A DNA stretch of 64,000 nucleotides from Anaerolineales bacterium (GTDB taxonomy: Bacteria; Chloroflexota; Anaerolineae; Anaerolineales; Villigracilaceae): assembly GCA_030680795.1 (NCBI GenBank), contig JAUXUL010000027.1, forward strand, positions 62,001-126,000, in the 5' to 3' direction. The notes beneath the pieces were generated by a model that saw only the letters and a list, made by a program, of their open reading frames with translations, was not told the DNA's origin and ran no database searches. Every line of letters begins with the position of its first letter. Within the stretch, counting starts at the first letter, position 1. Position numbers and translations under genes: made by a program. Shown piece after piece: positions 919-59,211 of this stretch.

Positions 919-1332
919 ATGACCTACTGGCGACTCCATTATCACCTCATCTGGGCAACACATGACCGCGAACCCAGCCTCACGCCCGAACGCGAGAAAA
1001 TGTTTTACGGCGTGCTTTACAACAAAGGTAAAGAACTCGGATTGATAATCCACGCCGCTGGTAATATTGAAGACCATGCTCATGTTGTTGCATCCATTCC
1101 ACCAAAACTCGCGGTTGCAGATTGTGTTCGTCATCTCAAGGGCGCAAGCGCATACGCCATTAATCACATGGACGGTAGCGATGGCAAATTCAAATGGCAA
1201 GGCGGATACGGTGCGTTGAGCGTTAGCGAGCGTTCATTGGAAACGGTGATGGAATATGCCGCAAGACAGAAGGAACATCACCGCGATAATAAATTGATTG
1301 CGGTGTATGAGAGAATTGATGAGGAAGAATGA
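919..1332 (+). CDS. REP-associated tyrosine transposase (IS200/IS605 TnpA-like)
   Basis: A 137-residue Y1 HUH transposase. The HUH metal site is H53-A54-H55 (EDHAHV), and the nucleophile is probably Y113 in VMEYAARQKEHH. The FKWQGGYGALSVS and RQKEHHRD segments are family hallmarks. The ATG at 919 is chosen because AAAGG sits 8 bases upstream; an upstream in-frame start at 790 would read through the REP element. There is no partner TnpB and no obvious IS ends, and near-identical REP-like elements lie on both sides, so it fits a domesticated RAYT that acts on these repeats as single-stranded DNA. Confidence 0.9.
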   Translation: MTYWRLHYHLIWATHDREPSLTPEREKMFYGVLYNKGKELGLIIHAAGNIEDHAHVVASIPPKLAVADCVRHLKGASAYAINHMDGSDGKFKWQGGYGALSVSERSLETVMEYAARQKEHHRDNKLIAVYERIDEEE

Positions 1333-52790: not shown

Positions 52791-53693
52791 CTATTGCTCC
52801 ACAAGTTCTGCCTGCCATGCCTGCGCGTACCAACGCAAATATTCCTGCACATGTGCGCCCCAATAGATTTCAGAATGGTCGCCTGCGTAGAAGTAGTATT
52901 CATGGATGTAATTATTCCGGACCAGCATTTCTTCAAAGACAAGGATGCTGGCCAATTCCCTGTCCGCATCACCCACATCCAACCATAAGCGCGGGCGGTT
53001 TTCTTCGGGAATATTTGTAACGATCTTCTCCACATAGGGGGCATCCTCTTTGAAAATGGCGGGGGAATGCAAACCAAGAGAACCAAACAATTCGGGATAT
53101 TCGAAGCCAAGTTTTACCACCCAGCCGCCGCCGCGCGAGAGACCACCAAGAGAGCGATAGCCGCGTTCTGCTAGCGTGCGGTAATTCTTATCTACATAGG
53201 GGATCAAGTCTTTGATGAAACGATCTCCAAAACCTGCGCCGGCTTGCAAATTCCAAGAACGGTCGTCTGGGAAGACGATCATGAATGAGACGGTCTCTCC
53301 TGAATGGCTCAATTGGTCTGCTATGTTTGGGGCGCCTAATCTCAGCCATTGATCTTGTGTATAGGTTTGCCCATGCAGCAGATAAAGGACTGGATAACTT
53401 GCATCCTCCAATTCCCCGTAGCAAGGCGGGAGATAGATGAGAAATTCCTGTGGTGGATTTGTGTAGGAGATCACATCTTGTTGAATGACGCCGGGCTGGG
53501 TGAGACAGGTCAGCGGGGTGGGAGTGGGCGGAATGGGACTTGGGGTAAAAGTGACTGTGGCGGTGACGGTGGGCGGAGGTGACGTCACTGTTTGAGTTGG
53601 GACGCTTCGCGTGTCATATGAGGCGGCGCAGGCTGAAAGTCCAAATAGAAGCGTAAAATAAGTGACGAATAGAATTGCTTGACGGGTGCACAT
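52791..53693 (-). CDS. Esterase-like lipoprotein (PF00756 type)
   Basis: A 300-residue lipoprotein: lipobox LSAC, a Thr/Pro-rich linker of about 35 residues, then an alpha/beta hydrolase of the enterochelin-esterase/antigen-85 group. LIYLPPCYG and YPVLYLLHGQTYTQDQW lead, the nucleophile is Ser in GGLSRGGGW, and the histidine is in AGDHSEIYW. The substrate is unknown. ATG 53693 is chosen because TATAAT lies 7 bases upstream and it begins the signal peptide. Confidence 0.87.
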   Translation of the reverse strand: MCTRQAILFVTYFTLLFGLSACAASYDTRSVPTQTVTSPPPTVTATVTFTPSPIPPTPTPLTCLTQPGVIQQDVISYTNPPQEFLIYLPPCYGELEDASYPVLYLLHGQTYTQDQWLRLGAPNIADQLSHSGETVSFMIVFPDDRSWNLQAGAGFGDRFIKDLIPYVDKNYRTLAERGYRSLGGLSRGGGWVVKLGFEYPELFGSLGLHSPAIFKEDAPYVEKIVTNIPEENRPRLWLDVGDADRELASILVFEEMLVRNNYIHEYYFYAGDHSEIYWGAHVQEYLRWYAQAWQAELVEQ

Positions 53694-53700
53694 CCTTCGC

Positions 53701-53706
53701 ATTATA
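53701..53706 (-). promoter_or_regulatory. -10 box for a leaderless esterase transcript
   Basis: On the minus strand TATAAT, GCGAAGG and ATG are consecutive, a 7-base gap. Confidence 0.6.
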
Positions 53707-53725
53707 CTCGTCCAGTTCATTTGAT

Positions 53726-53800
53726 CGGGGCGTGGCGCAGTCCGGCTAGCGCGTGGTGCTGAGGCACCAAGGTCGGACGGTTATCGTCTCAAATCCTATA
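53726..53800 (+). pseudogene. tRNA-Pro-derived pseudo-tRNA 1
   Basis: The first 28 bases are identical to the tRNA-Pro that starts 76 bases later. The anticodon arm is TGGTG-CTGAGG-CACCA with a 6-base loop, and the T arm (GGACGGTTATCGTCTCAAATCC) and 3' acceptor are ruined. The anticodon stem differs from copies 2-4 by a paired change (T-A for C-G). Confidence 0.8.
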
Positions 53801-53801
53801 T

Positions 53802-53876
53802 CGGGGCGTGGCGCAGTCCGGCTAGCGCGCTTGCTTTGGGAGCAAGAGGTCGCAGGTTCGAATCCTGTCGCCCCGA
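53802..53876 (+). tRNA. tRNA-Pro (anticodon TGG)
   Basis: A complete cloverleaf: acceptor CGGGGCG/CGCCCCG, D stem GCGC/GCGC, anticodon arm CTTGC-TTTGGGA-GCAAG with TGG, T arm GCAGG-TTCGAAT-CCTGT. CCA is not encoded. It is the only intact member of the local tRNA-Pro family. Confidence 0.93.
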
Positions 53877-53877
53877 C

Positions 53878-54120
53878 TTGTACTATATTTATATTATCCG
53901 CAGTCAACACTTACAACGATATTATGTGGGGTCAACCGAAGATGTGGAAAGACGCTTGCATGACCATAATGTAGGCAAGTCCACTTCAACACGCGCGGGT
54001 ATCCCATGGGAATTGATACATACCGAATCTTTTGCAACACGTTCCGATGCGATGCTTCGTGAACGAAAGATCAAGGCGCGTGGTATTGGACGATATTTTG
54101 CTCATATTCAGTCCGGCTAG
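53878..54120 (+). CDS. GIY-YIG nuclease domain protein abutting tRNA-Pro
   Basis: An 80-residue single GIY-YIG domain of the UPF0213/YhbQ type: YYIYIIRSQ, RYYVGSTEDVERRLHDHN with the catalytic Arg, and the C-terminal RSDAMLRERKIKARG. The only starts are TTG at 53878, one base after the tRNA discriminator C, or frames inside the tRNA. The stop codon TAG lies inside the next tRNA-like copy (GTCCGGCTAG). Thus the gene fills the space between two tRNA-Pro copies exactly. It may be a homing-type or repair nuclease. Confidence 0.82.
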   Translation: MYYIYIIRSQHLQRYYVGSTEDVERRLHDHNVGKSTSTRAGIPWELIHTESFATRSDAMLRERKIKARGIGRYFAHIQSG

Positions 54121-54192
54121 TGCGTGGCGCTTGAAGCGCCAAGGTCGGAGGTTTCCCCACAGGGGGGACGATGCGAATCCTGTCGCCCCGAC
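54108..54192 (+). pseudogene. tRNA-Pro-derived pseudo-tRNA 2, chimeric
   Basis: The copy begins in the D loop (CAGTCCGGCTAG), has the TGGCG-CTTGAAG-CGCCA anticodon arm of copies 3 and 4, then carries an insertion (TCCCCACAGGGGGGACGATG) in the T arm, and ends with the CCTGT-CGCCCCGAC 3' part of the intact tRNA-Pro. So its two ends come from different family members. Confidence 0.8.
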
Positions 54193-54201
54193 AGAAAGAC
54201 C

Positions 54202-54249
54202 AATACCGCCATATCACGCCGTCAATCGGCAAATATAGCGGTATTTTTT
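54202..54249 (+). terminator. Hairpin and T-run after pseudo-tRNA 2
   Basis: AATACCGCCATAT and ATATAGCGGTATT pair (12 of 13) around an inner GCCG-TCAAT-CGGC hairpin, followed by TTTTTT. It is related to the hairpins at 55178 and 57875. Confidence 0.75.
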
Positions 54250-54481
54250 ATGTCCCAAACAAAGATACAGAAGGAATAGCGAGGTACATTCGTGGAGACC
54301 GAGCAAATATTATCAGCGATGCGGGTTCCGCGGCTTCCCTTGATAATTTCTAGGACAAATAACGCATGACATTGTGGGTAGAAATCTTTGTAAGATACGT
54401 ATATAATGGATAAAGAGTATTTGATTTCAATGGGATGTTTTCTCAACATTATGTAAGAACGTAAACCTAAATGGAGCTCCA

Positions 54482-55015
54482 ATGGCATCAAATAAAAAAG
54501 AAGTGACTGAAAAAGCAATGCGAATATATATGGCGATAGAGAAAAATAAGAAATCAATCCTGGGGAAGGCTTTAGATCATGAGAAAAACGTTGATGAACT
54601 AAGCGAGGTAGATATGGCCTTGACTCGATTTGAACATAGTTTCCAAATAATGGAAAATTTGCTCATAAATATCCTTAGAACTGAATCCGGCCAAAGAACG
54701 GAAATAGACGAAAAACGGCATTTGTTTATTAATAAAGCCCTTGATTTGTCATCCGAACTAGAAGCTAAACTCAGAAATCCTGATATAAAATATGCGTTCA
54801 GAAATTTATATTTTGACAAACATACTTGGGATGAAATTCTTGTGTGGCTTGAGATTGATTCCGAAATAGTTCAAAACCGATATGAAGAACTCGCCCATTT
54901 GTTTAAAATCCCATATGACAAGAATGACAAGCTATGGGTACAGAAAATACATGATGAGAATAGCAGAAGAATTGCACAACTAGAAAAGAAAAATAAAGGA
55001 GATACCGTTAAATAA
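54482..55015 (+). CDS. AT-rich helical protein, unknown function
   Basis: A 177-residue, highly charged and probably all-helical protein with no signal peptide. Notable stretches are VDELSEVDMALTRFEHSFQIMENLLINILR and a Lys-rich C-terminus. No family is recognised. It is much richer in A+T than housekeeping genes here and lies between two tRNA-like copies, which suggests acquisition. The start has no clear ribosome-binding site (TGGAGCTCC lies upstream). Confidence 0.65.
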   Translation: MASNKKEVTEKAMRIYMAIEKNKKSILGKALDHEKNVDELSEVDMALTRFEHSFQIMENLLINILRTESGQRTEIDEKRHLFINKALDLSSELEAKLRNPDIKYAFRNLYFDKHTWDEILVWLEIDSEIVQNRYEELAHLFKIPYDKNDKLWVQKIHDENSRRIAQLEKKNKGDTVK

Positions 55016-55100
55016 ATCCCTACACCAAAAGATGCCCGTTCTATGCAGAGGAAATTCATGTAGAAGCAATCGTATGATCGCAATACAAAATATGTTAATT

Positions 55101-55175
55101 TTTAGCGTGGCGCAGTCCGGCTAGCGCGTGGCGCTTGAAGCGCCAAGGTCGGAGGTTCGAATCCTCTCGCCCCGA
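55101..55175 (+). pseudogene. tRNA-Pro-derived pseudo-tRNA 3 (anticodon position TGA)
   Basis: Length and arms match tRNA-Pro, but the 5' acceptor strand (TTTAGCG) no longer pairs with CGCCCCG. The anticodon arm TGGCG-CTTGAAG-CGCCA folds, and the T arm GGAGG-TTCGAAT-CCTCT is intact. The loop would give TGA, a Ser anticodon, but the long variable arm of tRNA-Ser is missing. Confidence 0.75.
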
Positions 55176-55177
55176 CA

Positions 55178-55234
55178 AATACCTCCATATAAGGGATTCT
55201 TCCGTCAATCTGACTGGCATATCCTATATATGGA
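55178..55234 (+). terminator. Hairpin and T-run after pseudo-tRNA 3
   Basis: ATACCTCCATATA and TATATGGAGGT pair, with an inner CCGTCAATC...GACTGG portion, followed by TTTTTCT. The inner CGTCAATC is shared with the hairpin at 54202, while both arms changed together. Confidence 0.75.
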
Positions 55235-55270
55235 GGTTTTTCTAATGTCACGAGTAGAAACTAAACAAAA

Positions 55271-55330
55271 ATGGATGCCTACAATAATATTCGTACCCAT
55301 AAGGCTTTACAGGACTCGTCGCCTCGCCAA
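55271..55330 (+). pseudogene. Relic of an rve-type transposase C-terminus
   Basis: The frame reads MDAYNNIRTHKALQDSSPRQ F, which matches the W-x-x-x-YN-x-x-R-x-H-x-AL-x-x-x-SP ending of IS3-like integrase-core transposases. The upstream part has a frame break (AAATGG ATG) and nothing else of the element is recognisable. The rest of 55235-55564 holds no supported gene. Confidence 0.55.
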
Positions 55331-55564
55331 TTCAAAATGCCTGATTTTGTCTACTTATCATTGGTATATAAAATGGGTACTTGGCAGTGCAGCGGGACAG
55401 TAAAGCCGAAATACACATATACAATGAGATCGACCCGGAAGTAACGGGAGTATACTGGAAGAAACTTCCACGCCCACTGGGGAGGGCTCGAAATTTTGCA
55501 AGAAACTGAATAGACACTAAAACTCACGGAGAAGCATACCGTAGCGCGCAAGCCTGGAGGAATT

Positions 55565-55915
55565 ATGGATAATCAAAATCAAAAATCACAGTTCACCCCT
55601 TTGACCTACATTCTGATTGGTGCAGCGTTAACTCTGGCATACTTATTATTCTTTTCAAACTCATCACCCAATGATTGCAAGATTAAATTCGCGCAGTATG
55701 TGAGAGTGTATGCGGGTCCCGACATCAAATATGATGTAACCACTGTTTTGGGTGAAGGTGACCGTTTGACGCTTTCGTCAGGAAAAAGTACCGACTGGCA
55801 TATTTGGCAAGAAGTTGTGACTGACGATGGTATAAAAGGTTGGGCGGCGGAAAACTGGGAAACCGTCTGCGAAAACTATCCGATATCTATCACCTTTGGT
55901 TTGAACGACCAATGA
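55565..55915 (+). CDS. Membrane-anchored SH3-like protein
   Basis: A 116-residue protein: the short start MDNQNQKSQFTPLTYILIG leads into one membrane helix, then a bacterial SH3-type domain (AQYVRVYAGPDIKYDVTTVLGEGDRLTL to GIKGWAAENWE). GGAGG precedes the ATG. The first 20 residues are shared with the next gene although the outer domains differ. It probably binds cell-wall or protein ligands outside the membrane. Confidence 0.75.
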   Translation: MDNQNQKSQFTPLTYILIGAALTLAYLLFFSNSSPNDCKIKFAQYVRVYAGPDIKYDVTTVLGEGDRLTLSSGKSTDWHIWQEVVTDDGIKGWAAENWETVCENYPISITFGLNDQ

Positions 55916-55933
55916 TGATACTTAGGAGAAATT

Positions 55934-56413
55934 ATGGACAACCAAAAACCGCAAACCAGCCCTTTAACATATATCTTGATTGGGGTTGTGATCGTTCTGT
56001 TACTTCAATACTTGTTTTCAAATAACCAAACTCAATCGTCTTCCCCATTTCAACAAAGCAATCCTACGGTAAATCCATATGAAGAGTGCATCACTTGGCA
56101 AGAAACAGAATATCACGATGGAGAAACCGTTTGTGTAATTGGCAAGATTTTATTTGTTGACAATAGTTATGACGATACGGTACAAGAAAGTTTATGGGCA
56201 GCGTATTTTGGTATGTCTGAAAATTCATTCCAAGTGAGAGCATGGGGAGATAGTTTGGATGAATGGCAAGATAAATGTGTCGTTATACGTGGAACGCTAA
56301 TAGATAGAAGTAAACAAGACCCTAGATGGAGAAATAAGGCTCCTGCAATGGTTAATAGTGAGTTCAGTTCAGATTTCGCAATCCGTGAGGCTCCCGTTGG
56401 GTTATGTCAATAA
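55934..56413 (+). CDS. Membrane-anchored protein with an OB-like outer domain
   Basis: A 159-residue protein whose start (MDNQKPQTSPLTYILIG) and membrane helix copy those of the preceding gene. The outer part, ETVCVIGKILFVDNSY to DKCVVIRGTLIDRSKQDPRWRNKAPAMV, looks like a small beta-barrel; I do not recognise a named family. GGAG lies before the ATG. The two genes, 18 bases apart, form an operon of one anchor with two different outer domains. Confidence 0.7.
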   Translation: MDNQKPQTSPLTYILIGVVIVLLLQYLFSNNQTQSSSPFQQSNPTVNPYEECITWQETEYHDGETVCVIGKILFVDNSYDDTVQESLWAAYFGMSENSFQVRAWGDSLDEWQDKCVVIRGTLIDRSKQDPRWRNKAPAMVNSEFSSDFAIREAPVGLCQ

Positions 56414-56636
56414 AAAATTTTCCGAATATTGAAAACCGGCTAGAAACTGACGAATTTCAAGAGACTGTATTAGCTCTTCAGTTGACAAGCGAGCAACTTT
56501 CACATCCTGCAACAACTTGAAATCTTCCTAATTGTACATAAGTAATTGTTTGTCTACCCAATGCTTTTCGAGGTTTCAAGGTATTAGTCAGCTTCGCGCC
56601 ACGGCAATAACTAAGCAATCGAACCCGGAGGTTATT

Positions 56637-57635
56637 ATGCAAATAAGTCGTTTCTTGTTGTTTGTTATGTTATTGCTTTCAGCTTGTGCGCCTTCACCAT
56701 TGGCTATTCAAACTGCGATAGCGGCGACACAAGCAGTGTGGACGAAAACTCCTTCTCCCACCTCAACCCATACTCCAACACCAACCCAGACACCAACGCC
56801 GACTCTAGGTCCTGGGGAAATCAAGGATTCGAGAGGCGTGAGCATGATTCTTGTTCCTGCGGGTGAATTCACGATGGGAAGCTCGGCGGAGGATGCTATT
56901 GTGGAGTGCCAAAAACGGTCCATAATCCAAAACACGAGTGGATGGGATTGCTCAAAGGACTCGTTCATAGATGGAGAACCCGCGCATACGGTTTATTTGG
57001 ATGCTTATGATATTGATAAATATGAAGTGAGCAATGCCGCATACCGCGCCTGCGTGGAGGCGGGCGAATGTTCTCCACCCGATGATAACTGGACCCCCAT
57101 ACCGAACAGTTATTATGGCAACAGCGCTTACGATGATTACCCTGTTCATGTGGATTGGAACATGGCGAAGGCCTTTTGCGAGTGGAGGGGAGCGCGCCTG
57201 CCGACCGAAGCCGAATGGGAGAAGGCGGCGCGTGGTTCAAATGGAAGCGTATATCCCTGGGGGAATGCTTTTGACGTGACAAAGTTGAATTTCTGTGATA
57301 AGCAGTGTCGTTGGGCAAACAATAACATTAATTACAACGATGGTTTTGCCGAATCCGCGCCTGTGGATTCATATCCAAATGGCGTGAGCCAATATGGAAT
57401 TTATAATATGGCGGGCAATGTCTATGAATGGGTGAATGATTGGTACAGCGAAACGTATTACCAAAGTTCTCCTTCATCGAATCCTTTGGGGCCGAATACA
57501 GGAGAATTTCGAGTGTTGCGTGGCGGCTCATGGTCGTCTAGAAGCGATACCTACTTTCGCTCTACCTTCCGCAACATGAACCCTCCTACGTCCGAGGGAA
57601 GGGACGATGGTTTTCGTTGTGCCCGCTCACCATAG
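56637..57635 (+). CDS. FGE-sulfatase-domain lipoprotein
   Basis: A 332-residue lipoprotein: lipobox LSAC, a Thr/Pro linker of about 30 residues, then a formylglycine-generating-enzyme (SUMF1) type fold. Hallmarks are MILVPAGEFTMGSS, DKYEVSNAAYRACVEAG, PVHVDWNMAKAFCEWRGARLPTEAEWEKAARG, YNMAGNVYEWVNDWY and VLRGGSWSSRS to GFRCAR. The active-site Cys pair of true FGE is not evident, so a binding or structural role is likely. GGAGG fixes ATG 56637. Confidence 0.87.
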   Translation: MQISRFLLFVMLLLSACAPSPLAIQTAIAATQAVWTKTPSPTSTHTPTPTQTPTPTLGPGEIKDSRGVSMILVPAGEFTMGSSAEDAIVECQKRSIIQNTSGWDCSKDSFIDGEPAHTVYLDAYDIDKYEVSNAAYRACVEAGECSPPDDNWTPIPNSYYGNSAYDDYPVHVDWNMAKAFCEWRGARLPTEAEWEKAARGSNGSVYPWGNAFDVTKLNFCDKQCRWANNNINYNDGFAESAPVDSYPNGVSQYGIYNMAGNVYEWVNDWYSETYYQSSPSSNPLGPNTGEFRVLRGGSWSSRSDTYFRSTFRNMNPPTSEGRDDGFRCARSP

Positions 57636-57786
57636 TTCTGCGACCGAAGGGAGTTCTGATTTCTGTAATTCCGATAACAAGCCGCTTGTTTTATCTTGCC
57701 TTTTTCGCAAGCCTACATAATACTTGCGAAGCGTTCAATAACGAACGCTTGCCTAGTGCAAAATTCTATACAACATGACGATGTTT

Positions 57787-57861
57787 TAGGGCGTGGCGCA
57801 GTCCGGCTAGCACGTGGCGCTTGAAGCGCCAAGGTCGGAGGTTCGAATCCTCTCGCCCCGA
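57787..57861 (+). pseudogene. tRNA-Pro-derived pseudo-tRNA 4 (anticodon position TGA)
   Basis: Nearly identical to copy 3. The acceptor strand TAGGGCG pairs at five of seven positions, and the D stem has a GCAC change. The anticodon arm TGGCG-CTTGAAG-CGCCA and the T arm are intact. Confidence 0.75.
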
Positions 57862-57874
57862 CAAAATATTATTG

Positions 57875-57918
57875 ACCGTTGTATTATGTCGACATTCGGC
57901 ATTATATGACGGTATTTT
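57875..57918 (+). terminator. Hairpin and T-run after pseudo-tRNA 4
   Basis: ACCGTTGTATTAT pairs in part with ATTATATGACGGT around TGTCGACATTCGGC, followed by TATTTTTA. The arms are less complete than in the other two hairpins. Confidence 0.6.
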
Positions 57919-58142
57919 TATATCTTACGCAAAAGTAAAAGAAAAATGTACGCTGGGCCGAGTGGCAGGTCTGTTTGCGAAGTTCGCGGGCGTTTTGGTA
58001 GCCTTTGGGTGTGGTTCTACGCGGCGGCATTCATACCCCCTCCGCCCTGCGGGCACCTCCCCCAAATCCGATAGGAGAAGTTTATATGTCAACCCGAATT
58101 CTGAGGTTGGATTTGGAGGAGGACAGGTGGGGGTTACTCATC

Positions 58143-58481
58143 CTACTTCTTCAATAAGGCAACTGCCTTTTCATGCGCTTTTGTTGCCTTCCACTTGGTT
58201 TTAATCAGCACGTGAGCAATATCTTCGTCTAATAACATCGCTGTATAATAGAGGTTCATTTTTTCCCCATATTTTTCTGTGTTTTCGTTGATCATTTTTG
58301 CGACCAATTTCCTCTTAATGTAACTACCAGCCTCCACCCAATCAAAAGCCGCAACTCCTAAACTGACCTGCTGTTCGGAATATCCTTTTTCTTCAAGAAC
58401 TTTTTTAAGTTCCTTTTTTTGGTCGGCATTGTCAATACTTGAAAAAATGTTAAAATTCGATAAATACCTGAAAAATCCCAT
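58143..58481 (-). CDS. Small protein, unknown function
   Basis: A 112-residue soluble, Lys-rich, probably helical protein (NADQKKELKKVLEEKGYSEQQVSLGVAAFDWVEAGSYIKRKLVAKMINENTEKYG). No family is recognised. It lies at the right edge of the tRNA-like tract and is transcribed toward it. Confidence 0.6.
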   Translation of the reverse strand: MGFFRYLSNFNIFSSIDNADQKKELKKVLEEKGYSEQQVSLGVAAFDWVEAGSYIKRKLVAKMINENTEKYGEKMNLYYTAMLLDEDIAHVLIKTKWKATKAHEKAVALLKK

Positions 58482-58908: not shown

Positions 58909-59211
58909 ATGGCTAAAAAGATTGACGGCGTTATCGAGGCAGTCCGCTATAAGAATGGACAGATCACACTGGTGCGGGCTTATGAACGGCGGGGCGCTAC
59001 CTTTTCAGATCATGTTCTGTTAGACCGCAAAACACTTCTTGAGCGCTTGCATAAAGGCGAACAATATGTCACCGGTTCACGAAAAGACCTGCTGGCCAGC
59101 ACCTTCACATTTGGAAAGCCGGTCGTCTTAGCGAAGGAAAATAACCGCGAATTCCTTGCCACGCGTGAAAACACAGCCTGTGATGAACTTGAAGATGTGC
59201 CGGTCTTTTAG
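58909..59211 (+). CDS. Small conserved-looking protein, unknown function
   Basis: A 100-residue protein starting MAKKIDGVIEAVRYKNGQITLVRAYERRGATFSD. It is a compact beta-rich sequence with no known motif. AGAGGA before ATG 58909 sets the start. It is first of four genes packed to 61490, so it probably shares a task with the NERD-like protein that follows. Confidence 0.7.
   Translation: MAKKIDGVIEAVRYKNGQITLVRAYERRGATFSDHVLLDRKTLLERLHKGEQYVTGSRKDLLASTFTFGKPVVLAKENNREFLATRENTACDELEDVPVF

Follow-up and report, generated by a model that had tools for sequence, protein, structure and literature searches.

The tRNA-Pro tract and its GIY-YIG gene

The 64,000-nucleotide stretch of DNA analyzed here (hereafter the window; contig JAUXUL010000027.1, positions 62,001 to 126,000, of assembly GCA_030680795.1, an Anaerolineales bacterium of the family Villigracilaceae, denoted G000) contains a tRNA-Pro(UGG) gene accompanied by altered copies of itself, a gene for a small GIY-YIG nuclease, and several small genes. 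The tRNA-Pro-derived set at 53726–57862 is bordered by a host esterase gene (52791–53720, minus strand) and a host gene starting at 58909. An earlier note on this DNA had counted an intact tRNA-Pro gene with four altered copies, and direct reading confirmed the count; all five are on the plus strand. The intact gene, a tRNA-Pro(UGG) (53802–53877), was called by both ARAGORN and Rfam. Copy 1 (53726–53801), which lies behind a promoter-like TTGACG..TATACT, comprises the 5′ half of tRNA-Pro followed by unrelated sequence in place of the lost 3′ half, while copies 2–4 retained the 3′ half and lost part of the 5′ end. Copy 2 (54109–54192) is a displaced fragment without the 5′ acceptor strand and with an extra hairpin in the T loop; copies 3 (55105–55176) and 4 (57787–57862) are tRNA-Pro-like and contain palindromes at 55129–55145 and 57815–57831, respectively.

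The hairpin common to copies 2–4 is TGGCGCTTGAAGCGCCA (54125–54141, plus strand, in copy 2), and copy 1 carries the changed form TGGTGCTGAGGCACCA (53754–53769, plus strand); both substitute for the anticodon arm, and the comparison of the two forms made in the earlier note was upheld. That note had further taken the arm to be under structural selection. Selection of it as a tRNA arm was unsupported because the arm was exchanged whole for a palindrome: the TGGCGC-n-GCGCCA of the window is a palindrome of the kind found in displaced tRNA pieces, and either TGGCGC..GCGCCA or TCCCGAC..GTCGGGA occupies the anticodon-arm site of tRNA-Pro copies in other genomes. We refer to the palindrome TGGCGC..GCGCCA as T.

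None of copies 1–4 has the complete cloverleaf and matching identity of a functional tRNA. The Rfam score was 67.2 bits for the real tRNA, 44.2 for copy 3, and 41.3 for copy 4, and copies 1 and 2 received no tRNA call from ARAGORN or Rfam. Copies 3 and 4 were labelled "Ser UGA" by ARAGORN, yet they have no long variable arm, and their acceptor stems are incomplete or mismatched. The copies might still produce tRNA-like RNAs that act in regulation or as decoys, such as for anticodon nucleases, as their stable hairpins run in the tRNA direction behind the promoter-like sequence. The broken acceptor stems, the missing 5′ or 3′ halves, and the fact that other genomes have an unrelated palindrome swapped in at this position argue against such RNAs, and we regard this explanation as very unlikely.

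The earlier note overlooked an open reading frame (ORF) between the intact tRNA and copy 2 (53878–54120, plus strand), which matched the GIY-YIG nuclease family (Pfam PF01541, E 2.1e-16). Its possible TTG start (53878) is directly behind the real tRNA, and its TAG stop (54118–54120) falls in the D-loop of copy 2. Among 110 aligned homologues, from which sequences with a stop or with fewer than 56 residues had been dropped, R25 was retained in 110 of 110, H29 in 109 of 110, Y15 in 108 of 110, and E61 in 108 of 109, and each of Y15, G17, H29, E61, and K65 was present in at least 106. The protein has the GIY-YIG domain with conserved Y, R, and E expected of a homing endonuclease of this type and, from its residues, looks active. 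The nearest solved sequences were the small GIY-YIG proteins of UPF0213 (PDB 1ywl and 1zg2, E 3.5e-6 and 6.2e-6), whose entries are named "hypothetical"; SLX1, a structure-specific nuclease, matched weakly (E 0.064), and PADLOC returned only weak matches.

A homologue was present in nine of 150 family genomes. Eight of these genes lie directly behind tRNA-Pro(UGG) at the same locus, and the ninth, in G508, begins at the contig start. Behind the nuclease gene, a displaced tRNA-Pro piece whose arm is of the T palindrome type was found in the window genome and in G001, G033, G279, G508, G524, and G535. Comparison of the gene content between relatives, which the earlier note had put forward as a check, revealed differences. 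Between tRNA-Pro(UGG) and the next host gene lie 92–161 bp in G002, G014, G015, G019, and G031, which have no insert on that side, 300–440 bp in seven nuclease-carrying genomes, and 5032 bp in the window; the spacing is 178 bp in G556 (L160), where a T unit lies upstream, and at the right junction of G036 it is 110 bp. The nuclease gene stands alone next to the site it is presumed to target and is carried by some alleles but not by others, as expected of a SegB-like homing endonuclease.

Altered units were not confined to the arrangement in the window. The relative G001 carries the 76-bp unit of the copy 1 type in tandem, with four T units at 76-bp spacing upstream of tRNA-Pro(UGG), three further T units on another contig, and one more at tRNA-Pro(GGG). 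Units flank tRNA-Pro(GGG) on both sides in G033. The T palindrome is additionally found in place of the T arm in G524 and within the D arm in G535.

GIY-YIG genes and displaced tRNA pieces in other genomes

Further copies were found beyond the family, in other phyla. The pattern of a T-tipped tRNA copy matched four of 396 class genomes and 34 stretches of named GTDB contigs, some of which come from genomes G001, G033, G279, G353, G508, and G535. The matched records include Chloroflexi, Bacteroidetes, Ignavibacteriae, Melioribacter, Stygiobacter, and Calditrichaeota, and no match was obtained in IMG/VR. Among the 34 stretches, tRNA-Pro lay within 1500 bp in 23 and a GIY-YIG match was present in 17. 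Four stretches (L153, L155, L158, and L175) were set aside as off-target, as no tRNA, GIY-YIG, or tRNA-like context was nearby.

GIY-YIG genes were collected from two sources. The first comprised 16 genomes picked by the altered-copy pattern, of which 13 were positive, giving 28 GIY-YIG rows (L187–L214). The second was a class sample of 294 genomes, of which 107 were positive; from the matches listed, 26 new loci were taken automatically, 20 regions were chosen mostly because several matches lay together (arrays), and 40 further regions were taken roughly in list order. Removal of nine duplicates from 114 loci left 105 distinct loci. Among the matches listed, 88 of these 105 had a same-strand tRNA within 300 bp, and 87 were analyzed after exclusion of L289, whose region was too short. 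Thirteen tRNA isotypes were represented in the 87 loci. Of the 17 loci without a nearby same-strand tRNA, 14 were near contig ends, and an opposite-strand tRNA alone was seen in none.

In 67 of the 87 loci, the sequence across the nuclease gene from the tRNA contained 13 or more consecutive bases identical to that tRNA; when tRNAs of other isotypes served as decoys, this was so for 23 of 1044 pairs. These displaced copies occurred in each group of loci (16/22 in the picked genomes, 17/21 among the automatic loci, 10/13 in the array-chosen regions, and 24/31 in list order). An earlier alignment test covered 28 loci, two pairs of which overlap; 24 had a tRNA, and the true tRNA beat all 15–18 decoys in 19. 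For the 51 tRNAs shorter than 80 nt, the breakpoints lay in the D loop (4), at the 5′ edge (5) or the 3′ edge (20) of the anticodon arm, in the T loop (18), or elsewhere (4); the 16 longer tRNAs (Ser, Leu) were kept outside these classes. Perfect stems of at least 7 were detected in 65 of the 87 regions and in 42 of 435 shuffles, although some of them are terminator-like or AT-rich and lie outside the tRNA piece. At the 33 tRNA-Pro loci, the palindrome was T in 19 cases and TCCCG..CGGGA in 9; of the 54 non-Pro loci, one had T and 25 had TCCCG..CGGGA. The T palindrome was found in 8 of 10 tRNA-Pro loci from the pattern-picked genomes and in 11 of 23 from the class sample. Units also occurred in tandem: a tRNA-Asp had five, each of 315 bp, and a tRNA-Pro and a tRNA-Ser had three apiece.

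We consider the tract to be best explained, with a probability of about 70%, by nested insertions at one tRNA-Pro(UGG), in which free-standing GIY-YIG units are combined with decayed integrative elements. The units resemble SegB of T-even phages, a free-standing GIY-YIG homing endonuclease tied to tRNA genes and to tandem amplification (PMC13096335). In the first layer, a free-standing GIY-YIG gene would settle in the tRNA gene and leave an intact tRNA on one side and a displaced fragment on the other, with the D, anticodon, or T arm or loop of the fragment replaced or interrupted by a small palindrome. By analogy with SegB, the nuclease would cut nuclease-free alleles at the tRNA and be copied in by repair, so that the host retains an intact tRNA while the leftover half is displaced. 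The palindrome may protect this leftover half-site from recutting and from tRNA activity. Units are seen on both the 5′ side (copy 1) and the 3′ side (the GIY-YIG gene with copy 2) of the tRNA; they multiply in tandem, and the nuclease gene can be lost.

The palindrome that takes the place of the arm is not restricted to tRNAs. Across the G000 genome, T was found at 10 sites, three of them in the tract, and the reversed control pattern at one. Forward counts of T and the control, which include the tract copies, were 48/4 in G001, 35/7 in G033, 28/6 in G531, 19/3 in G535, 14/2 in G279, 20/5 in G353, 29/1 in G524, and 50/3 in G508; they were 9/6 in G361, 7/4 in G021, and 6/3 in G026, which have no T-tipped copy. 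The nine genomes that have an altered tRNA copy thus gave ratios of T to the control between 4 and 29, and the three that lack one gave 1.5 to 2. Away from the nuclease genes, the 137,555 bp surrounding the loci of the other sample contained TCCCGA..TCGGGA seven times, against one for its control, and no T.

Some T copies are the tips of palindromes of the repetitive extragenic palindromic (REP) type. Among 32 dispersed T copies in G000 and G001, three had 9–10 of 10 complementary flank positions and seven were in a GTAG-type frame; in the tRNA copies, by contrast, it is tRNA sequence and not GTAG that comes before the palindrome. The view that T is in general the tip of a longer palindrome was rejected, as the flank complementarity of 3.34 did not differ significantly from the 3.00 of re-paired flanks (maximum 4.03). 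Of 22 family genomes, 20 contain the REP frame TCGAGTAG..CGTATCGA, whose palindromic tips differ greatly inside a single genome (e.g., G524 and G508), as if they had been exchanged. A Y1 transposase domain is located at window positions 925–1269 (G000:C8:62925-63269; E 1.4e-20).

The dispersal of the palindrome and the abundance of REP frames with changing tips suit another explanation, plain decay, in which tandem tRNA duplicates gained REP-like palindromes by chance and the GIY-YIG gene is a passive inherited neighbor. The presence of Y1 transposases (PF01797) in all 14 genomes tested was also counted for decay; because these genomes include ones with and without the tract, the transposase link does not discriminate. 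Within the family, moreover, all detected copies of the nuclease gene that could be placed share a single locus, which favors decay and weighs against insertion by the nuclease. The recurrence of the GIY-YIG link at 13 tRNA isotypes elsewhere, the retention of the active-site residues, and the location of 47 of 51 breakpoints at tRNA loops or arm edges argue against decay, and we judge it improbable.

A tighter relation between the nuclease and the palindrome was also considered, in which hairpins or cruciforms would be what the GIY-YIG protein recognizes. Its substrate, and at the same time the element end, would be the palindrome of the displaced arm, and solo palindromes would be non-autonomous offspring. 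The pair would then be a GIY-YIG counterpart of the REP-associated tyrosine transposase (RAYT) and REP system, with tRNA genes as home sites. The T-to-control ratios by genome and the 7-to-1 count of TCCCGA..TCGGGA are in line with this idea, whereas the T count of zero in the 137,555 bp and the non-significant flank complementarity weaken it, and we treat it as a speculative proposal that is unlikely to hold. Very small mobile repeats in cyanobacteria were reportedly described by Elhai in 2008.

Probable recombinase leaders and the small genes

The second component of the nested insertions was traced from the hairpins that follow copies 2–4. The earlier note had described these hairpins as having a T-run and arms that change together. 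Their covariation was borne out, and the 72 bases upstream of the start position folded better than shuffles after copies 2, 3, and 4 (z −6.5, −5.5, and −3.6, respectively); although terminator-like, they sit directly 5′ of a start codon (ATG) after copies 2 and 3. The first probable leader remnant (54202–54252, plus strand) comprises a hairpin, a T-run, and an ATG at 54250, with the gene body absent. In the second (55180–55247, plus strand), the hairpin is followed by an ATG at 55245. The third (57873–57922, plus strand), behind copy 4, is weaker and has ATA, with no start codon at the matching place.

These sequences resemble the leader of a tyrosine recombinase gene in the relative G036, which lies behind a tRNA-Pro interrupted at its T loop; the similarity is clear after copies 2 and 3 and weaker after copy 4. 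The recombinase was found in 18 of 150 family genomes at 21 loci, and in 20 of the 21 it lies behind a tRNA gene or a 5′ tRNA fragment (14 same-strand ARAGORN calls and six 5′ fragments recognized by eye; the exception is L140). Roughly 25–140 bp, with a structured leader, separate the tRNA from the start of the gene. The folding z of the leaders ranged from −0.6 to −6.7 across the 21 loci, for which the start codons were picked by a script and are doubtful in some (e.g., L126 and L137). Direct repeats of 45–105 bp within the tRNA, as expected of integrative elements, bound four of ten recombinase regions in the relatives, with elements of 4.0–9.9 kb, and the window has corresponding repeats in copies 3 and 4. 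The repeats cover the tRNA 5′ part in L143 and the 3′ part in L141, L146, and L150. The recombinase gene itself is present in the relatives, while the window holds leaders only. A search of IMG/VR found no relative of the recombinase.

Two side observations concern these loci. Five contigs (G008:C353, G036:C94, G036:C95, G452:C50, and G483:C265) end approximately 40–330 bases past the recombinase gene, which hints at repeats. At L150 (G526), the element at tRNA-Pro(GGG) has, besides its recombinase, an ORF of 304 aa that looks recombinase-like by eye, and another T-tipped tRNA-like copy lies past the right end of the element.

Given the leader likeness and the adjoining of recombinase genes to tRNAs, copies 2–4 are probably followed by the decayed starts of recombinase elements, and the ORFs of the tract are likely the cargo of integrative elements. 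In the second layer of the nested insertions, elements of 4–10 kb, with the recombinase gene closely behind the tRNA after a structured leader, would have entered later at the same tRNA; the leader remnants after copies 2–4 and the small genes would be the survivors of this layer in the window, and copies 3 and 4 may have been brought by recombinase elements.

The five ORFs encode 177 aa (54482–55015, plus strand; no confident family), 116 aa with a bacterial SH3 domain (55565–55915, plus strand; Pfam PF08239, E 1.4e-6), 159 aa (55934–56413, plus strand; no family), a protein with an FGE-sulfatase (sulfatase-modifying-factor) domain (56532–57635, plus strand; Pfam PF03781, E 2.5e-55), and 112 aa (58143–58481, minus strand; no confident family), the last preceding the host gene at 58909. 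PADLOC matched none of the five to a family, and the tract ORFs matched no recombinase family in profile searches. Elsewhere in the window, a SAM (S-adenosylmethionine) riboswitch was detected at 172–283 (74.3 bits).

The earlier note had considered a gene-cassette array, in which the altered copies would be the dedicated attachment sites of a cassette-swapping recombinase. Part of this idea was retained, as the copies do mark the boundaries of DNA inserted at the tRNA gene. A 2.6-kb segment is flanked by copies 3 and 4 as nearly identical direct repeats, which agree at 79 of 82 aligned columns, a recombinase-like leader lies behind each of copies 2–4, and the content varies between relatives, all of which would be expected of such an array. 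A dedicated tRNA-derived site was not borne out: the altered arm was found beside the recombinase at 0 of the 21 loci in the relatives, and the recombinase scored 84.2 bits against the integron-integrase profile TIGR02249, whose cut-off is 265. In addition, no recombinase of this family was matched in G000 at E 1e-40, and the altered copies adjoin GIY-YIG genes in Bacteroidetes/Ignavibacteriae contigs, where recombinases were not searched for. We therefore hold a cassette array to be improbable as well.

The reading of nested insertions has weak points of its own. The lack of a recombinase match in G000 counts against its second layer too, as do the poor alignments of the copy 4 tail and of the G008 leader and the six of ten recombinase regions without direct repeats, several of which lack them because the contig ends soon after the gene. 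For the first layer, the nuclease gene of G361 has no displaced copy, that of G531 is followed by a short remnant only, and that of G001 carries an internal stop. Twenty of the 87 loci miss the 13-base requirement for a displaced copy, several of them showing broken copies by eye, and the sample of GIY-YIG genes followed a similarity ranking, was drawn largely from a single class, and included the 20 regions chosen mostly for arrays. The evidence is comparative throughout, and cleavage, homing, and any excision are inferred from it.

Known systems and significance

Phages are already known to have a free-standing nuclease at tRNA genes; what is new, to judge from the literature searched, is the bacterial form, in which hairpins break the tRNA pieces. 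Like the GIY-YIG genes described here, the free-standing SegB gene is linked to many tRNA isotypes, the tRNA and nuclease gene are amplified in tandem after breaks and recombination, and a short sequence is common to the tRNA 5′ region and the gene 3′ region (PMC13096335). The units described here differ from SegB in that the protein is short and has a single domain, the genes reside in bacterial chromosomes, and they lie at the very end of the tRNA. They also leave a hairpin-broken tRNA fragment on the other side, a scar that is not described for SegB in the part of the source available (PMC13096335). A search by titles and the beginnings of abstracts, with preprints and most subscription journals outside its scope, retrieved no description of GIY-YIG genes with displaced hairpin-broken tRNA fragments.

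The elements of the second layer resemble known tRNA-targeting tyrosine-recombinase elements, with partial and complete tRNA copies around the element and repeats within the tRNA (PMC9897764). They differ in that a structured leader precedes the recombinase gene, whose start is roughly 25–140 bp from the tRNA; in the window only the leaders are kept. The palindromes share with REPs a short, dispersed form and changing stems and loops, with GTAG-type frames here, and Chloroflexi are among the carriers of REPs and their transposases (PMC3733652). Unlike REPs, the palindromes of the tRNA copies adjoin a GIY-YIG gene rather than a Y1 transposase gene and are located in tRNA arms.

If the proposed nested insertions are correct, free-standing homing-type nucleases, which are best known from phages, would be at home in bacterial chromosomes beside at least 13 tRNA isotypes, and the recurring scar would be searchable by computer. 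They would also explain odd "tRNA genes", such as the two "tRNA-Ser" calls in the window, and short GIY-YIG ORFs that run out of a tRNA. The role of a palindrome in a broken tRNA arm for a DNA-cutting element would become testable.

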